Source: Planctomycetota bacterium (lineage in GTDB: Bacteria > Planctomycetota > UBA1135 > GCA-002686595). From it: 64,000 nucleotides of DNA. The stretch is from NCBI GenBank assembly GCA_016220085.1, contig JACRIN010000083.1, forward strand, positions 1-64,000, written 5' to 3'. Below the pieces are notes generated by a model, which did no database searches, had not been told where the DNA came from, and saw only the letters and a program-made list of their open reading frames with translations. Shown in pieces: positions 5,821 to 56,319 of the stretch (position 1 is the first letter of the stretch; each line of letters opens with the position of its first letter). The translations under genes were made by a program, and so were the position numbers.

Positions 5821-6881
5821 CGCGGCCGCTCCATCTCCGCGCACAGGCGCGCCATCAAGCGCTCGACCTCGTGGTCGCGCGCGACGATCGCTCGCAGGCT
5901 CGCGCCGAGCGCCTCGCGCTCGCCCGCACTGCGCGCAAGCAGTCGCTCGAGCGCCTGGTCGAGCGCCGCCGGGTCGCGTTTCGCGAAATGGAGCGCTTGC
6001 GCGTCCGCGCCGAGCTCGCGCACGACGCCCGCGAACGCGTCGTTGCACGACAACACCGGCCGCGCCGCCGCCATCGCCTCCAGCACGACCTTATCGAGGC
6101 TGCCGGTGTGGCTCGAATTGACCACCGCGGTCGCCCGCGCGTAGAAGCGCGGCACGTCGCGATACGGCACGGCGCCGTGCAGCACGACGCGGTTGGCGAG
6201 CCCGAGCTCGGCGATCCGGCGCTCGACGACGCCGCGGTACTCCGCGTCGCCCGCTGCGAGCCCGCCGCCGACCCACTCGAGCCGGACGTCGCGCCCGCGC
6301 GCGGCGAGTCGCGCGACCGCCTCGATCACGGTCAACGGATCCTTCGACGGCGTCAAGCGACCGACCGAGAGCAGCACCGGCGGCTCGTCCGGCCGCGCGC
6401 CGCGCGGATCGAAGTGCGCGAGGTCGACTCCGTGACCGGTGACGACGGTCTTCGGACTGTCGACGCGCAGCGACTCCGGCGTCGCGGTGAAAACCTTGTC
6501 GACCTGCCGCACCGCGCGCTCGAGCCGCGCGTCGACGCCGCCGTGCGTGTACCAGAGATAGAGACGCGCATCGTTCCTCTGCACGAACGGCGCCGCGACG
6601 TTGGCGTAGCGCGGCACCATGTGCGCGAGCACCGCGTCGAAGCCGTCGCGCTCCAATGCCTCTTTCAGGATCGAGCGATAGCGCAGATAGCGTCGGATCA
6701 CGCCGCGCCTGCCGACCTCGCGCCAGTCGACGTTCGCGGGCAGCTCGCGGGTGTCGCCGACCTCGAGCGCGACGACGCGCACGCGCTCGGCGTGGCGCGC
6801 GAAACCCTCGATCCAGCGCGGCACGAAGCCGAGCACGGCGTCGCCGCGGTCGAGCACCTGCGTCAGGAAGACGAGCTTCAT
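5817..6881 (-). CDS. Glycosyltransferase family 4
   Basis: MKLVFLTQVLDRGDAVLGFVPRW...VLLSVGRLTPSKDPLTVIEAVARL...VVNSSHTGSLDKVVLEAMAAARPVL. Confidence 0.9.
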   Translation of the reverse strand: MKLVFLTQVLDRGDAVLGFVPRWIEGFARHAERVRVVALEVGDTRELPANVDWREVGRRGVIRRYLRYRSILKEALERDGFDAVLAHMVPRYANVAAPFVQRNDARLYLWYTHGGVDARLERAVRQVDKVFTATPESLRVDSPKTVVTGHGVDLAHFDPRGARPDEPPVLLSVGRLTPSKDPLTVIEAVARLAARGRDVRLEWVGGGLAAGDAEYRGVVERRIAELGLANRVVLHGAVPYRDVPRFYARATAVVNSSHTGSLDKVVLEAMAAARPVLSCNDAFAGVVRELGADAQALHFAKRDPAALDQALERLLARSAGEREALGASLRAIVARDHEVERLMARLCAEMERPR

Positions 6882-8011
6882 CTCCGCACGCCCTCGAGCC
6901 CGACCAGCCGATGCAGGCCTTCGGCGTAGCCGCGCAGGATCTGCGAGTACTCGAAACGCTCGGCGCGTCGGCGCGCCTCGAGCCCGAGTTCGCGCCTGCG
7001 CCGTTCGTCCGCGAGCACCGCGGCGAGCCCCTCGGTCAGCGACTCGACGTCGAAGCCGACCAAGCGGCCCGCGGCGCCGTCCTGGAGCAGCTCGGTCATC
7101 ATCCCGACCGCCGTGCTGACCACCGGCGTGCCGCACGCCATCGCCTCGACGGTGAAACGCGGTCCGCCCTCGCACGTCGACGCGCAGACGACGACGCGGC
7201 TCTTGCGATACAGCTCGGCGAGATCGCTCGCGCCCTGCACCCACTCGACGAACCGCGCGTCGAGCCCGCGTCGCTCCGCGCGCGCGATCGTCGCCGCCCG
7301 GAGCGGTCCCTTGCCGACGAACAGCGAGCGCGTCTTCGTCCCCCGACGGTCGAGTTCGGCGAGCGCGTCGACGATGCGATCGAGGCCCTTGTTGTTGACC
7401 ATCCGGCCGACGAACAAGACGTCGAGCTCGGGCTCGACCGGCTCATTGGTCGGCGAGAAGACCGCGAGGTCGATGTAGAGCGACGGCAGGACGATCACCT
7501 TGTCCCTCGGAACGCCCCAGCGTTCGAGCAACGGCGGCATCTCAGCCGAATTGACGACGCGGAACGCGAGCGCGCGCTCGGACGCCCAACGGACGTACAG
7601 CTCGGCGATCACGCGATCGATGCGCTCCTTGAAATCCGCCGCGACCGGAAAGCCGGGCACGTGATGGATCTCGGAGAGGTACGGCACGCCGTGCGCTCGC
7701 GAGAGCCGCGCCGCAGCGAGGCCGTTGTAGAACCAGCCGTAGTCGTGGCTGACGATCAGCTCGTGGCGGTGCAGCGCGAGCAGCTCGCCGCCGCGCCGCG
7801 TCAGGTACGACAGCATCCCCGCGCGCGAGGACGGCGACGGATGGAAGTGCACGCGCTCCCAGATCGTCGACACGGTCGGCGGCTTCGGCGGCTTCGGGCA
7901 GAGCACGTCGATGCGCTCGAACCAGCGCGAGAACTCGCGCTGCATCGCGTGGAAAGGTCCCTGTTCGCCGATCGAGACCTGGCGGTCTCCGGAGAGCATC
8001 AAGAGGCGCAC
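6878..8011 (-). CDS. Glycosyltransferase family 4
   Basis: MRLLMLSGDRQVSIGEQGPFHAMQREFSRW...VLFVGRMVNNKGLDRIVDAL...CEGGPRFTVEAMACGTPVVSTAVGMMTELL. Confidence 0.9.
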   Translation of the reverse strand: MRLLMLSGDRQVSIGEQGPFHAMQREFSRWFERIDVLCPKPPKPPTVSTIWERVHFHPSPSSRAGMLSYLTRRGGELLALHRHELIVSHDYGWFYNGLAAARLSRAHGVPYLSEIHHVPGFPVAADFKERIDRVIAELYVRWASERALAFRVVNSAEMPPLLERWGVPRDKVIVLPSLYIDLAVFSPTNEPVEPELDVLFVGRMVNNKGLDRIVDALAELDRRGTKTRSLFVGKGPLRAATIARAERRGLDARFVEWVQGASDLAELYRKSRVVVCASTCEGGPRFTVEAMACGTPVVSTAVGMMTELLQDGAAGRLVGFDVESLTEGLAAVLADERRRRELGLEARRRAERFEYSQILRGYAEGLHRLVGLEGVRR

Positions 8012-47721: not shown

Positions 47722-47797
47722 CGGGGAGTACCTCAGCTGGTAGAGGCGCAGCTTTGGGTGCTGCGAGTCGTGGGTTCAAATCCCATCTCCCCGACCA
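47722..47797 (+). tRNA. tRNA-Pro(UGG), CCA encoded
   Basis: CGGGGAG acceptor / CTCCCCG-A-CCA; anticodon stem GCAGC-TTTGGGT-GCTGC; T-loop TTCAAAT. Confidence 0.95.
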
Positions 47798-47811: not shown

Positions 47812-47888
47812 GCGCCCGTAGCTCAGCTGGATAGAGCATCGGATTTCTAATCCGACGGTCAGTGGTTCGAGTCCACTCGGGCGCGCCA
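47812..47888 (+). tRNA. tRNA-Arg(UCU), CCA encoded
   Basis: GCGCCCG...CGGGCGC-G-CCA; anticodon stem TCGGA-TTTCTAA-TCCGA; T-loop TTCGAGT. Confidence 0.95.
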
Positions 47889-48290
47889 ACACGATCTCGC
47901 TGGGGCCACCGAGCACTTCCGCGGTCGTCGGCGATCGATCGATGGAGGCCAAGCAGACCGCCAAGACACGCGAGCCATCGGTGCCGGTTCGCAGAGCGAC
48001 CGCCGCGTGCGGATCGTCGAGCGTCGGGAGGAGACCGATCCCAGGACTCCCGTCGTCGACCCGAACATGCGCCTCGCGATTCAGCACCGACGTGGCTGTC
48101 GAGTGTCGCGCGAATGACGGCGCTCCATTCGGTGCCGCGCAAGACGCGACGAGCCGCGGGATGATGAGGCGCATCGGCGTGTGAGCGTCGAGAGTGCGTC
48201 CCCTCGTCATCGGCGTTGAGGCCCGACGGATCGGGGAACCTGGCGCCAGGTCGACGCGCGCTGGATCCAATCGGACCGGAGGCATAGGGT

Positions 48291-49307
48291 GTGGCCGTCA
48301 TGCAGCTTGCCGACAGGATCCTGGCCGTGCGGGCAGCGGCCATTGAGCGCGGTGTCGCGCCGGTCGCTGACGTGCTCCAGGGGGTTGCGAAGGCCCGCAT
48401 CGCCGAGACACTCCGCGCGCTCGACCTGGAGACCGCGGATCGGGTCGATGCCGTGTTCGCCCTCCTCGACAACGAGCATCGTTCCTGGTTCACGACGCTT
48501 CCCAACGACGTGAAGTTCTGCGAGGGCGCGTCCATTGCCCACGTCGGTTGTCACGTCGGGATACTCCAGCGTGGTAAGTCGAAGCTCGATCGCGAGGGCC
48601 GCGACTACTGGATCAAGCCCCTGCGCGAGATCGGCGCCATCGAGCCGATCTACCTCGACTCCCATGCCAAGTTGTTCCTGCCAGGGCACCCGAAGGCGAA
48701 GTCCCCGAACTCCGCGTACCGGCTCGACGCGGCGTTCGTGGAGATCCTCCGCGCGCCGGAGCTGGAGTGGAGGTCGAAGCTCGCCGCTTGGAGCAGCGAG
48801 GACGCGAAGCGCGAACGACTGAGGTTCCGCGCGGTCCAAGCCGAGGCCACTCGCGCGGCGACGGACACCGCTCATGCGGACCTGATCCGCGCGTGCTGCG
48901 ACGTCTACGCGCCGAAGTTCTTGCCGGGGTACGACCTACTGTTCGTCGACGACTCAGATGGCGATCGTGTCTCCGAAGTCGAACGCGAAGCGCTGTACGG
49001 AACCGGGCTCGACCTCTCACTCGGCGATGCGATGCCGGATGTGCTGCTCCACCACCGGGGCCGCAACGCGCTGTGGATCATCGAGGCGGTGACAAGTGAC
49101 GGCGAGGTCGATCACCACAAGGTCGATCGGGTCCGCGAGTTCGCGAAGCGTTGCGGCAAGTCTGACGTTGGTTTCACCACCGCGTACCCGACGTGGAAAG
49201 TTGCGGCGCAGCGGCAGGGACGACACAAGAACGTCCCGCCGGGGACGTACATCTGGATTCGCGAGGACGCGGCGAAGCAGTTTCGGGCCGAGTCCTTCGA
49301 AGTTTAG
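48291..49307 (+). CDS. Type II restriction endonuclease, BsuBI/PstI family
   Basis: C-terminal GLDLSLGDAMPDVLLHHRGRNALWIIEAVTSDGEVDHHKVDRVREFAKRCGKSDVGFTTAYPTWKVAAQR matches the BsuBI/PstI pattern (MPDV...IEAVTS.GPVD...TAFP); SD ggagg before GTG 48291. Confidence 0.87.
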   Translation: MAVMQLADRILAVRAAAIERGVAPVADVLQGVAKARIAETLRALDLETADRVDAVFALLDNEHRSWFTTLPNDVKFCEGASIAHVGCHVGILQRGKSKLDREGRDYWIKPLREIGAIEPIYLDSHAKLFLPGHPKAKSPNSAYRLDAAFVEILRAPELEWRSKLAAWSSEDAKRERLRFRAVQAEATRAATDTAHADLIRACCDVYAPKFLPGYDLLFVDDSDGDRVSEVEREALYGTGLDLSLGDAMPDVLLHHRGRNALWIIEAVTSDGEVDHHKVDRVREFAKRCGKSDVGFTTAYPTWKVAAQRQGRHKNVPPGTYIWIREDAAKQFRAESFEV

Positions 49308-50827
49308 GCCAGCGCGCCGTCCACGATGGCGTCGATCCCCGCCTGATCGGGGAACGCCTTGCCGATGCGTTTCCCGATCGCCTTGAGCGTGGCTAGGTCG
49401 GGGTATCGGATGCTTCGGAGGTCGGTCGCATTGACTTGCGTGTGCCCGTTGAACTGCCGGAAGTAGCGATCGACGAGCGAGCTGTTCAGATACGCGGCCA
49501 GGCCGCGCGCGATTCCCTTGTGCAGTCCGCGTCCGCTCGCATGGAAGTAGTTGACGTGGTTCTCGATGCCGAGCTGCGCAACGCCCGAGGGCAGCCGCGA
49601 CGGATCACACACGACGGCGACGACGCGGCGACGCTCCTCCTTCGAGGTGAACCGCTTGGTCAGCACGTAGGTTTCGTTGGGCACCATCAACGCTCGCGTT
49701 GCAGGCTCGTTGGCGAGCGCGTTGGCCTTCCGTCCGCCGAGCTTGGGCCAGGCCACGTACCCGCCATTGAAGTGCGTCGGGTAGATCAGCGGAAAGGTGT
49801 TCGAGACAGGATCGTCGCGAAGGAACTCGCGAGCACGGAAGTCCACGACACGGCCGGTCGAAACCGTGAAGCCCAAGTCGGCGAGCTTGCAGGAAAGCGC
49901 CGACATGCGCTTCGCCACCTCGGCATCCTCGCTCGAGGTCGCAAGGTGGATGAAGGCGTCGGGATCTCTCGGATCGACGACGGCCGCGTGAGGCACCGTG
50001 CGCTCCGCGACGGGCTCACCGGGCGCAGCACTCGACGATAGGACGACCTTTCCGCGCGGAGCTGCCTTCTTCACGTGGAAGATGATGTTCTCCTGGAGCA
50101 CAGCGTCGTCGCGGAACGCGCGGTTGCGGCTCTCGAAGACGTGGATGCGCAGAAGCGATGCTTCTTCGAGCAACAGGCGACGGAACTGCCGGAAGTACGG
50201 CCCGTTACAGAAGCTCCTCGGAGTGATCGCAACGAGTTCCCCACCGGGCGCCAGCAGCCGAAGCGCGAGACCGACGAACGCCGTGTAGAGGTTGCTCGTC
50301 TCGATTCCGGCCGCGCGGAGTTGGAAGCGTTCGCGCGAGTGGCTGCTGATCTTTCGGTACGGCGGATTCAGGATCGCCGCGTTGAACTGTGGCGCGGTTC
50401 CCTCGCGGAACAAGCCCAAGTCGAGGGACGATGCACCGTCCTCGATGAAATCGCGCTCGACGACGCGATCGACGAACCGAACTCGCGCGACACGCGCTGC
50501 GGCCTCGCACGAATCGAGCACCTGGCGCAGGCCCGAGAGCATCACGCCGTCCACTTCGTATGCCGTGGCCTCGATGACTTTGGGTTTCCGCGGGCGCGCA
50601 AGCAGATCGTGAACGACGGCGGCCGTGAGCGATCCGACGCCCGCGCCCGCGTCGAGGAGCCGAACCTCGTGGCCCAGGTCCCCGAACATCGACGCCATGA
50701 ACGACGCCACAACCGCCGGCGTCATGTACTGGCCGAGGGTGGCGCGAGTCGTCTCGTCGAGGGCCGAGTTGGCCCGCTCGCGACTCGTGTCGGCGTCGGC
50801 TAAGAGGGATTGGGAGCGGAATGTCAC
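49304..50827 (-). CDS. N6-adenine DNA methyltransferase (Eco57I/PstI type)
   Basis: LGQYMTPAVVASFMASMF, LLDAGAGVGSLT (motif I), FNAAILNPPY (motif IV). Confidence 0.93.
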   Translation of the reverse strand: MTFRSQSLLADADTSRERANSALDETTRATLGQYMTPAVVASFMASMFGDLGHEVRLLDAGAGVGSLTAAVVHDLLARPRKPKVIEATAYEVDGVMLSGLRQVLDSCEAAARVARVRFVDRVVERDFIEDGASSLDLGLFREGTAPQFNAAILNPPYRKISSHSRERFQLRAAGIETSNLYTAFVGLALRLLAPGGELVAITPRSFCNGPYFRQFRRLLLEEASLLRIHVFESRNRAFRDDAVLQENIIFHVKKAAPRGKVVLSSSAAPGEPVAERTVPHAAVVDPRDPDAFIHLATSSEDAEVAKRMSALSCKLADLGFTVSTGRVVDFRAREFLRDDPVSNTFPLIYPTHFNGGYVAWPKLGGRKANALANEPATRALMVPNETYVLTKRFTSKEERRRVVAVVCDPSRLPSGVAQLGIENHVNYFHASGRGLHKGIARGLAAYLNSSLVDRYFRQFNGHTQVNATDLRSIRYPDLATLKAIGKRIGKAFPDQAGIDAIVDGALA

Positions 50828-50948
50828 GGCGGCACCCTAACGGATGCCGAACGTCGCGTCGAGCGCGGATCGCGAGTTCGACGGGCCCGATGGTAGCGGT
50901 CCGGGAGCGCCCTTCCGAGGACGCGAAGCGGGTCACTTGGCTCACGTG

Positions 50949-50986
50949 TCCGACGATCGGTGGTTCGAGTCCACTCTGCAGCGCCA
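50949..50986 (+). repeat. tRNA-Arg 3'-half remnant (att-like)
   Basis: tccgacgatcggtggttcgagtccactctgcagcgcca vs tRNA-Arg tccgacggtcagtggttcgagtccactcgggcgcgcca; no matching 5' half upstream. Confidence 0.8.
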
Positions 50987-51138
50987 GATCCCAGAGCTCG
51001 CCGCCGTAGAAGAGGTGCGCAGGAGGCGCCCGGCGTTCGGCGATCCGCGGTCGCGGATTGCGTCCGCGCGCTGGAGCTCGGCGAGGCCTCGCGCGTTCAG
51101 TCGAACCACCAGCGCACGACGCCGCCTGGGTCGCTGCA

Positions 51139-51618
51139 TCAGACCGCGAGCAGCGAGCCGTAGCCGACGGCGAAGCTCGCATGGGCCCGTCGCAGGCCGG
51201 CGATGCGTTCCACGTGCGCGCGCCACGCGATCGGCGCGTAGGCGGCGAGCGAGAAGAACGCCGGGAAGAGCAGGGCGGCGCCGAGTCCGTACGCGATGCC
51301 GAACGAGTCGCTCGCCGCGCCGGCGACGGACTCGTCGGCGGGCTCCCACGGCAGTCGAAGCGGGGCGAGCTCGGGCCAGCGGCCGAGTTGCACGCGCGCG
51401 CGGCCTGCGACGAGCGCGAAGGACGCGAGCCACGCGATCGGCAGCAGCGCGAGCCCCGTCAGCACGCGACCCGCGCGGCGATCGAGCCAGTCCGAGCGCG
51501 GCCCCGCGCGGTCGATCGTTCGATCGATCCAGACCACGACCGCGGCGACGACTCCGGCGACGAGGACGAGCGAGCTGGCGAAGGCGGCGGTTTCGATCAC
51601 GACCCCAGTCTCGCTCAC
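51139..51618 (-). CDS. Small membrane protein, unknown
   Basis: MSETGVVIETAAFASSLVLVAGVVAAVVVWIDRTI... multiple hydrophobic segments. Confidence 0.65.
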   Translation of the reverse strand: MSETGVVIETAAFASSLVLVAGVVAAVVVWIDRTIDRAGPRSDWLDRRAGRVLTGLALLPIAWLASFALVAGRARVQLGRWPELAPLRLPWEPADESVAGAASDSFGIAYGLGAALLFPAFFSLAAYAPIAWRAHVERIAGLRRAHASFAVGYGSLLAV

Positions 51619-54231: not shown

Positions 54232-56319
54232 ATGTCCGGACCTCGTTCGACCTCCGTGTCCTCCACCTCGCGCCTCGCGCTCGCCGCGGTCTTGCTCGCG
54301 CTCGCCGCGTGCGGCGCTCCGAAAGCCCGCGTCGCGGCGCCCGTCGCCGACGCGCCGCTCGCCGACGCCCCGGCAACGCGCGAATTCGAGATCCGTGGCG
54401 AGCGCGCGTGGCTCGGCGGCCAAGAGATCGACCTCTGGGGCGTGCGCTGCGGCAACGCTCTGCACAGCTGGGCGGTCACCGAGCGCCACGTGCGCGCGCT
54501 CGACGACTACGCGGCGCACGGCGTCAACTTCCTCGGCGTCTACGTGCAGGGCAGCAACGGCGGTTGGCCGGATGCCGACGCCGGGCTGAACGGCTTCCGA
54601 CCCGACGGCAGCCTCAAACCCGACGTCGCGGCGCGCCTCGAGTGGCTCGTGCGCGAAGCGGATCGGCGCGGCATGGTCGTGTTGGTCGGGCTCTTCTCGC
54701 CTCGCAAGGACGAAGCGCTGCACGGCGAGCCCGCGGTGCGACGCGCGATCGAGGAGACCGCGCGCTTCCTCATGGAGCGCAACCTCGAGAACGTGCTCGT
54801 CGACTTGATGCACGAGTTCGACCACACCGAGCGCGCGGACCAAGAGCTCCTGCGCGAGCCCGACGGCGCGGCGAAGAAGGCGAAGCTGACGCGCTGGTTC
54901 AAAGCGGTCGCGCCGTCGATCGAGGTCGGAGTGTGCCCGTACGAGAAGTCGCCGACGACCGACACGTACCCCGGCATGGACGTGCGCATCGTGCAGAAGT
55001 CGATGGCGATCCCGAGCTCCGGCTTCGTCGTCAACGTCGAGACGCAGAAGCAGGATGCGTACGAGAACGACGGCGTCTTCGGTCCGGGCCAGTTCGACGC
55101 GGTCTTCTCCGACTGCGAGCGCTACCTCGCCAGCCCGAACGCCGTGATGCTCTTCCACGCCGCGTACCTGCAAGGCATCGGCAACTACAGCGGCACCGCG
55201 CCTCACGCGGAGCTCGGCGGCTACGGCACGACCACCGGCGACCGAGGCGTGCGCTTCTACTTCGACTGGGTGCGCGACCACGTCGGTCGTTGGGAGTATC
55301 CGCGGCACGTTCCGGCTGCCGCGGGCGTCGCAGGCGCCACCGGGGGCGCGACGGTCGCGGATCCGGAGCCGAAAGCCACGCGCGAGTTCGAGCTGCGCGG
55401 CGGCGAGCCCTTCCTCGGTGGCGCACCGGTCAAGCTCTGGGGCTTGCGCGTCAACAACTCACTGATGAGCCCGGCGGTCACCGAGCGCTTGCTCCACAAC
55501 CTCGACCACTACGCGGAGCACGGGATCAACTTGATCAGCGTCGCGCTCCAAGGCACCAACGGCGGCTTCCCGGACGTCGATGCGGGGCCGAACGCGTTCA
55601 CGCCGGACGGCCGCTTGATCGGCGGGTTCAAGAAGCGCCTCGAGCTCGTCGTCCGCGAGGCCGATCGCCGAGGCATGGTCGTCTGCATCGGAGTGATGAT
55701 GCCGCGCAAGGACCAGCTCGTGCGCGACGAAGCCGCGGTCGAGAACGCCTTGGAGGAGACCGCGCGGTTCCTCGAGCAGCGCAAGCTCCGCAACGTGCTC
55801 GTCAACCTCTACCAGGAGTTCAATCACCCCACGCGCATCGATCACGAGGTCTTCCGCGAGCCCGACGGCGACGCGAAGAAGGTTCGGTTGACGCAGTGGT
55901 TCAAGGCGGTCGCGCCCGACGTCGAGGTCGGCATCTGCCCCAACCACCTCTCGGGTTCTCCCGCCGCGTACACCGGCTGCGACGTGGTGATGTTCCACGA
56001 GGACATGCCGATTCCGGCCGAGGGCTTCGCGCTGAACACCGAGACGCCCGACGAGGATCAATCCGGCGCGGAGGGCGTCTTCAACGCGTTCCAGCGCGCG
56101 CACATGGAGTCGGTCTGGGCTCGCTACGAGGGCTCGCCGCGGCTCGCGATGCTGTTCCGTTCGCCGTACCTGGAAGACGTGCGCGGCCGCCAGGGCACCG
56201 GGCCGAACCTCGAGATGGGCGGACGCGGCACCGGCGAGAACGACCGCGGCGTCCAGGTCTACTTCGACTGGGTGCGCAAGCACGCGGGCCGTTGGGTCTA
56301 CCCCACGCACGTCCCGTGA
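54232..56319 (+). CDS. Lipoprotein with two tandem glycoside-hydrolase-like (TIM-barrel-like) domains
   Basis: Lipobox LAAVLLALAACG; repeat 1 TREFEIRGERAWLGGQEIDLWGVRCGNAL... and repeat 2 TREFELRGGEPFLGGAPVKLWGLRVNNSL... throughout. Confidence 0.85.
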   Translation: MSGPRSTSVSSTSRLALAAVLLALAACGAPKARVAAPVADAPLADAPATREFEIRGERAWLGGQEIDLWGVRCGNALHSWAVTERHVRALDDYAAHGVNFLGVYVQGSNGGWPDADAGLNGFRPDGSLKPDVAARLEWLVREADRRGMVVLVGLFSPRKDEALHGEPAVRRAIEETARFLMERNLENVLVDLMHEFDHTERADQELLREPDGAAKKAKLTRWFKAVAPSIEVGVCPYEKSPTTDTYPGMDVRIVQKSMAIPSSGFVVNVETQKQDAYENDGVFGPGQFDAVFSDCERYLASPNAVMLFHAAYLQGIGNYSGTAPHAELGGYGTTTGDRGVRFYFDWVRDHVGRWEYPRHVPAAAGVAGATGGATVADPEPKATREFELRGGEPFLGGAPVKLWGLRVNNSLMSPAVTERLLHNLDHYAEHGINLISVALQGTNGGFPDVDAGPNAFTPDGRLIGGFKKRLELVVREADRRGMVVCIGVMMPRKDQLVRDEAAVENALEETARFLEQRKLRNVLVNLYQEFNHPTRIDHEVFREPDGDAKKVRLTQWFKAVAPDVEVGICPNHLSGSPAAYTGCDVVMFHEDMPIPAEGFALNTETPDEDQSGAEGVFNAFQRAHMESVWARYEGSPRLAMLFRSPYLEDVRGRQGTGPNLEMGGRGTGENDRGVQVYFDWVRKHAGRWVYPTHVP

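Follow-up and report, generated by a model that had tools for sequence, protein, structure and literature searches.

The segment at 47889-50986 of the window (the whole 64-kb stretch of DNA analysed here, contig C54 of a 5.55-Mb, 111-contig assembly) is best read, with a probability of about 0.87, as a relic tRNA-Arg island from which the integrase has been deleted and in which an intact BsuBI/PstI-type restriction-modification (R-M) pair is left. The segment between the repeats is a true insertion, as one congener (G003) is empty exactly at the end of the tRNA-Arg gene, and it is a decayed tRNA island resembling a cis-mobilizable element (CIME), a kind of element that is already known (PMC5704250). 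The initial annotation had suggested a decayed or trans-mobilised mini-island at this locus; direct evidence for the decay is now provided by the stub of an integrase gene. A sibling island at the same tRNA end is found in another congener (G002).

The Displaced tRNA-Arg 3′ End

ARAGORN places tRNA-Pro(UGG) at 47722-47797 and a complete tRNA-Arg(UCU) gene on the plus strand at 47812-47888, the latter being the integration target and the left boundary of the segment. The last 38 nt of this gene (47851-47888, plus strand; tRNA positions 40-77, beginning with the anticodon-stem 3′ strand and ending with CCA) form the proximal repeat copy, and the distal copy, a displaced tRNA-Arg 3′ fragment, is found 3,098 bp downstream on the same strand at 50949-50986. 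The two copies are identical at 33/38 positions and have a 17-nt core in common, GTGGTTCGAGTCCACTC; the repeat described in the initial annotation was therefore re-found in every particular, and it lies far above chance. When both strands of the 64 kb window are scanned with a 40-nt tRNA probe, the distal copy scores 33, the sole other site above 26 is the genuine tRNA-Arg(UCG) at 30, and the top non-tRNA site reaches 26, which is also the highest score obtained from 100 simulated second-order Markov sequences of 10 kb each.

The distal repeat starts at tRNA position 40, with the base that opens the anticodon-stem 3′ strand, and no tRNA 5′ half lies upstream of it; it thus represents a displaced fragment and not a tRNA gene that is dying. 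It is 13% diverged, with some of the 5/38 differences falling in the acceptor-stem part, which indicates that the insertion is old and leaves the exact attachment core unreadable. A CTGCAG (PstI) site is present within the distal repeat at 50976-50981.

Insertion into an Otherwise Empty Site

In G003, the tRNA-Arg gene is followed by ~38 nt and then by sequence matching the window from 51084 onward, that is, by an empty site, and alignment of the junctions in the window, G002 and G003 displays the common block GCGTT..CAGTCGA.CCACCAGCG.ACGACGCCGCC. The homologue of this chromosomal right flank (51084-51443 in the window) starts ~100 nt after the distal repeat in G002. In a third congener, G001, the distance from tRNA-Arg to the match of the TonB receptor gene is 507 bp, as against ~4.3 kb in the window; the segment is therefore missing from the syntenic site in G003 and, judging by distance, in G001. 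The genus is represented here by four genomes, all of them metagenome assemblies or unevenly complete. The left flank of the window is 93-98% identical to G002, and the right flank is 87% identical to G002 and 73-80% to G001; as both flanks match one and the same genus, a chimeric contig is unlikely. In the right flank, the gene after the TonB receptor appears to be made up of two related halves ~1 kb apart (54373-54942 and 55375-55940), each of which cross-matches the opposite half of the G001 counterpart at ~69%.

At the same tRNA and on the same side, G002 carries an 8.2 kb island between tRNA-Arg and a copy of the tRNA-Arg 3′ end, and this island resembles the window segment in holding restriction cargo and an integrase of the stub's subfamily. 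Its distal repeat, 50 nt in length, matches the window tRNA at 49/50 positions (98%) and its own tRNA at 40/40. Unlike the window segment, it has a near-perfect repeat, its tyrosine integrase (PF00589, 6.2e-19) is intact and directed towards the tRNA, and its restriction enzyme, of type ISP/IIG and apparently split over two frames, is unrelated to that of the window; the other genes encode AlpA/HTH_17 proteins and a protein with a weak Rep-like match.

Base composition also sets the segment apart, as GC is 0.661 inside it and 0.704 in each 10-kb flank, and GC3 is 0.82-0.83 for the two R-M genes compared to 0.91 for purD and the TonB gene. An empty site in close relatives, integrase-bearing islands at the same tRNA and a shift in GC and codon usage had been named in the initial annotation as the comparisons to make, and all three came out in favor of an island. 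Vertical, syntenic inheritance of the R-M pair among relatives, which would have spoken for the opposite, is not seen, the pair being absent from all three congeners. That a chance tRNA-like sequence merely lies beside a vertically inherited R-M pair, with no island involved, is extremely improbable: in its favor are the mismatches in the repeat and the fact that tRNAs share T-arm sequences, but 33/40 exceeds the chance maximum of 26, a near-perfect copy occupies the homologous spot in G002, the site is empty in G003, and the pair is missing from every one of the three congeners. Chance and vertical inheritance were both rejected, neither being compatible with the empty site or with the island in G002.

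The Integrase Stub

The absence of an integrase from the segment, as first annotated, is correct as far as an intact gene is concerned; what the minus strand does hold, at 47971-48204, is the decayed C-terminus of an integrase. This dead tyrosine integrase stub of 78 codons, identified by tblastn and a family HMM, lies just within the left boundary, the position that the integrase occupies in relatives. Like the intact gene of G002, it is oriented convergently with the tRNA, towards which it reads, and it stops 82 bp short of the tRNA end. The G002 integrase matches the window at 48372-47971 on the minus strand (tblastn, E 4.5e-10), with a TGA being crossed, and a search of the whole genome with the same protein returns G000:C54:47962-48360 at E 1.2e-8, with one TGA. 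An HMM built from six members of the integrase family gives the stub E 3.8e-11 compared to E 2-3 for the best noise; once the residues reading into the tRNA antisense are trimmed, the value is 5.5e-9 at 47971-48204 and that of the next match is 2.4. The catalytic Tyr has been lost, as LDRYTH reads LNREAH with Glu at the Tyr position, and the HxxR motif is broken.

A comparable stub is seen in a genome from another genus, G067 (L118, G067:C45, ~292210-295943), in which a 3.65-kb mini-island of hypothetical genes at tRNA-Arg(UCU) is bounded by the complete tRNA-Arg and a ~50 nt copy, with no intact integrase inside. Its integrase stub comprises 55 codons (E 3.7e-15) and is separated by 126 bp from the end of the tRNA. 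Two mini-islands with differing cargo have thus retained the same end of the integrase, which is explained by simple internal deletion, as the C-terminus abuts attL.

The geometry of the tRNA and its fragment, together with the empty site, points to an element with an attachment site matching the 3′ part of tRNA-Arg(UCU), which would have integrated there by means of a tyrosine integrase; its own copy would have restored the tRNA, and the original 3′ end would have been pushed to 50949-50986. The integrase, of the G002-island subfamily and reading towards the tRNA, was probably deleted later down to its C-terminal stub. The convergent endonuclease and methyltransferase genes persist intact, in an element that is no longer able to excise on its own.

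The Restriction-Modification Pair

The endonuclease and methyltransferase had been annotated as the only occupants between the repeats; both are confirmed by Pfam, but they have the integrase stub for company. The plus-strand gene at 48300-49307 encodes a BsuBI/PstI-family type II restriction endonuclease of 335 aa from the ATG at 48300, with the GTG at 48291 as an alternative start. It matches PF06616 (BsuBI_PstI_RE) with E 1.8e-19 and 70.1 bits, the curated cut-off being 27, and is locally similar to SdaI (2IXS, 8.1e-7); no match was obtained to NCBIfam models. The minus-strand gene at 49304-50827 encodes an Eco57I-type N6-adenine DNA methyltransferase of 507 aa, supported by PF07669 (E 2.2e-12, 47.9 bits, cut-off 25.3) and by the PADLOC model MTase_II (7.3e-167), and its translation holds the motifs LLDAGAGVGS, which is DxGxGxG-like, and NPPY. 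The genes are convergent with a 4-nt overlap, and the locus combines what defines a BsuBI/PstI type II R-M system, a PF06616 endonuclease above the cut-off and an adjacent N6-adenine methyltransferase with its motifs. It differs from the known SdaI-related systems in that its endonuclease lacks an NCBIfam match and that CTGCAG is not avoided: 18 sites are found in the 64-kb window where 14.6 are expected, although this count is weak evidence on the predicted specificity.

In type II R-M systems, unmodified incoming DNA is cut and the host is protected, and losing the pair can kill the cell. The pair in the window would likewise cut unmodified incoming DNA and protect its host, and its retention could be explained by the cost of losing it and by the blocking of foreign DNA. 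Both frames are open and evolve under purifying selection, dN/dS between the copies in the family being 0.12-0.14 for the endonuclease and 0.18-0.22 for the methyltransferase; hence the pair has been kept functional across genus-level separation, a constraint that is not datable to the time since the island decayed.

Distribution of the Pair and the Question of a Second Entry

The endonuclease occurs in 3/81 genomes of the family (the window genome, G005 and G064), and in all three carriers the R-M pair is located at tRNA-Arg(UCU). In G064 (L096, G064:C72), the pair follows purD, tRNA-Pro and a damaged tRNA-Arg in which positions 1-14 are fused to 40-77. The same contig has a perfect 99-nt repeat, made up of the tRNA-Arg 3′ part and flank, at 1-99 and ~6798-6896 and ends inside this repeat. 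The tRNA may be truly disrupted, or a circular or tandem form may have produced the pattern during assembly. In G005 (G005:C414:11327-27394; L085, L045), which was the sole match when the genome contig collection was scanned for the endonuclease, a 16-kb element at tRNA-Arg(UCU) carries the pair at its right end, next to an AbiJ-like protein. A scan of the whole contig shows this element to be flanked by copies of the tRNA 5′ half that form a perfect repeat of 39 nt, 16 kb apart; inside its left end is its own integrase, of the Arm-DNA-bind_3 type and unlike the stub's subfamily, and it also holds a primase-like protein and a 5-hmdU DNA kinase helical-domain protein. Islands with a 5′ fragment are a known minority, 159 in Islander compared to 3,760 with a 3′ fragment (PMC4383910).

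In the phylum sample of 392 genomes, two further carriers of R-M relatives (G196 and G360) lie outside the family, and no tRNA was found within the 11-16 kb around their R-M gene. A general association of the pair with tRNAs was rejected on this basis.

In the three islands that bear the pair, the break in the repeats falls on the 3′ edge of the anticodon loop (tRNA position 39/40), the repeats of the window and G064 running from 40 onward and those of G005 covering 1-39. In the islands without the pair (G002 and G067), the repeats begin at ~26-28. Given these differing break points in the sequences, the pair may have travelled with an integrase other than the stub's, and the stub and the pair may come from different elements. 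In a two-step history, an older tRNA-Arg island would have been reduced by decay to its two ends plus the stub, with the R-M cassette entering separately through homologous recombination or a second element. In keeping with this, the islands of G005 and G064 have other neighbors, carry the cassette in the opposite orientation as seen from the tRNA and lack integrases of the stub's subfamily; the integrase in G005 is of a different type and goes with a duplicated tRNA 5′ half; and homology to both copies stops just outside the two R-M genes. However, decay in a single step involves fewer events, the genes of islands like these are often found in shuffled order, and a second pair of ends is not seen inside the segment. 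A separate entry of the cassette is accordingly a possibility to be kept in mind, but an unlikely one beside the relic of a single tRNA-Arg island.

A Recurrent Integration Site and Its Known Counterparts

A single tRNA locus provides a series from empty (G003) through integrase-bearing (G002) to decayed mini-islands (the window and G067), and tRNA-Arg(UCU) emerges as a recurrent, defense-carrying integration site in this planctomycete family. Decayed integrative elements (ICEs/IMEs) that keep attL and attR are known as CIMEs (PMC5704250), and the window island is like them in being small, in having lost its integration genes and kept its cargo, and in occupying a site that is also used by integrase-bearing islands. 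Integration and transfer genes have been lost to the extent that, the stub aside, only the endonuclease and methyltransferase genes remain. Both repeats are present, the distal one at 33/38 and without the anticodon-loop part. The island differs from CIMEs in its damaged distal end and remaining integrase stub, and no transfer gene remains that would point to an ICE or IME. In comparison to the tRNA and tmRNA islands of Islander (PMC4383910), the segment has the complete tRNA gene and a displaced same-strand fragment downstream that reaches the tRNA 3′ end, and at 3.1 kb it falls within the 2-200 kb range; however, it holds only the 78-codon stub in place of an intact integrase gene, and the integrase filter of Islander would reject it. 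Island finders that require an intact integrase miss such relics.

If attL and attR were still usable, the mini-island might be mobile in trans, with another island at tRNA-Arg(UCU) supplying the integrase for its excision, in the manner of a CIME or hitch-hiker. Retention of both ends is a described property of CIMEs (PMC5704250), islands with an integrase occupy this tRNA elsewhere in the genus and the family (G002 and G031, the latter with two copies 29 kb apart and an integrase of the same family adjoining the tRNA), and a second mini-island without an integrase exists in G067. Recombination of the distal copy with attL is nevertheless doubtful in view of its 5/38 differences and its lack of the anticodon-loop bases common to the G002 and G067 repeats, and the closest intact integrase in the window's genome, a member of the stub's subfamily on contig C13, adjoins tRNA-Leu; continued mobility is thus very unlikely. 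In a broader form, tRNA-Arg(UCU) of the family would host tiny islands that repeatedly lose the integrase save for the stub on the attL side, remain mobile in trans and spread R-M or other cargo between genera, a speculative proposal that we regard as improbable.

Integrases of the stub's subfamily are also found beside other RNA genes, adjoining tRNA-Arg(UCG) and tRNA-Asp in G022 and lying near tmRNA in G015 and G035. The open frames of several integrases (L042, L089, L091 and L092) continue over the attachment site into the tRNA antisense, and these read-through frames yield spurious-looking C-termini such as 'GLEPATTGVTGRYS'.
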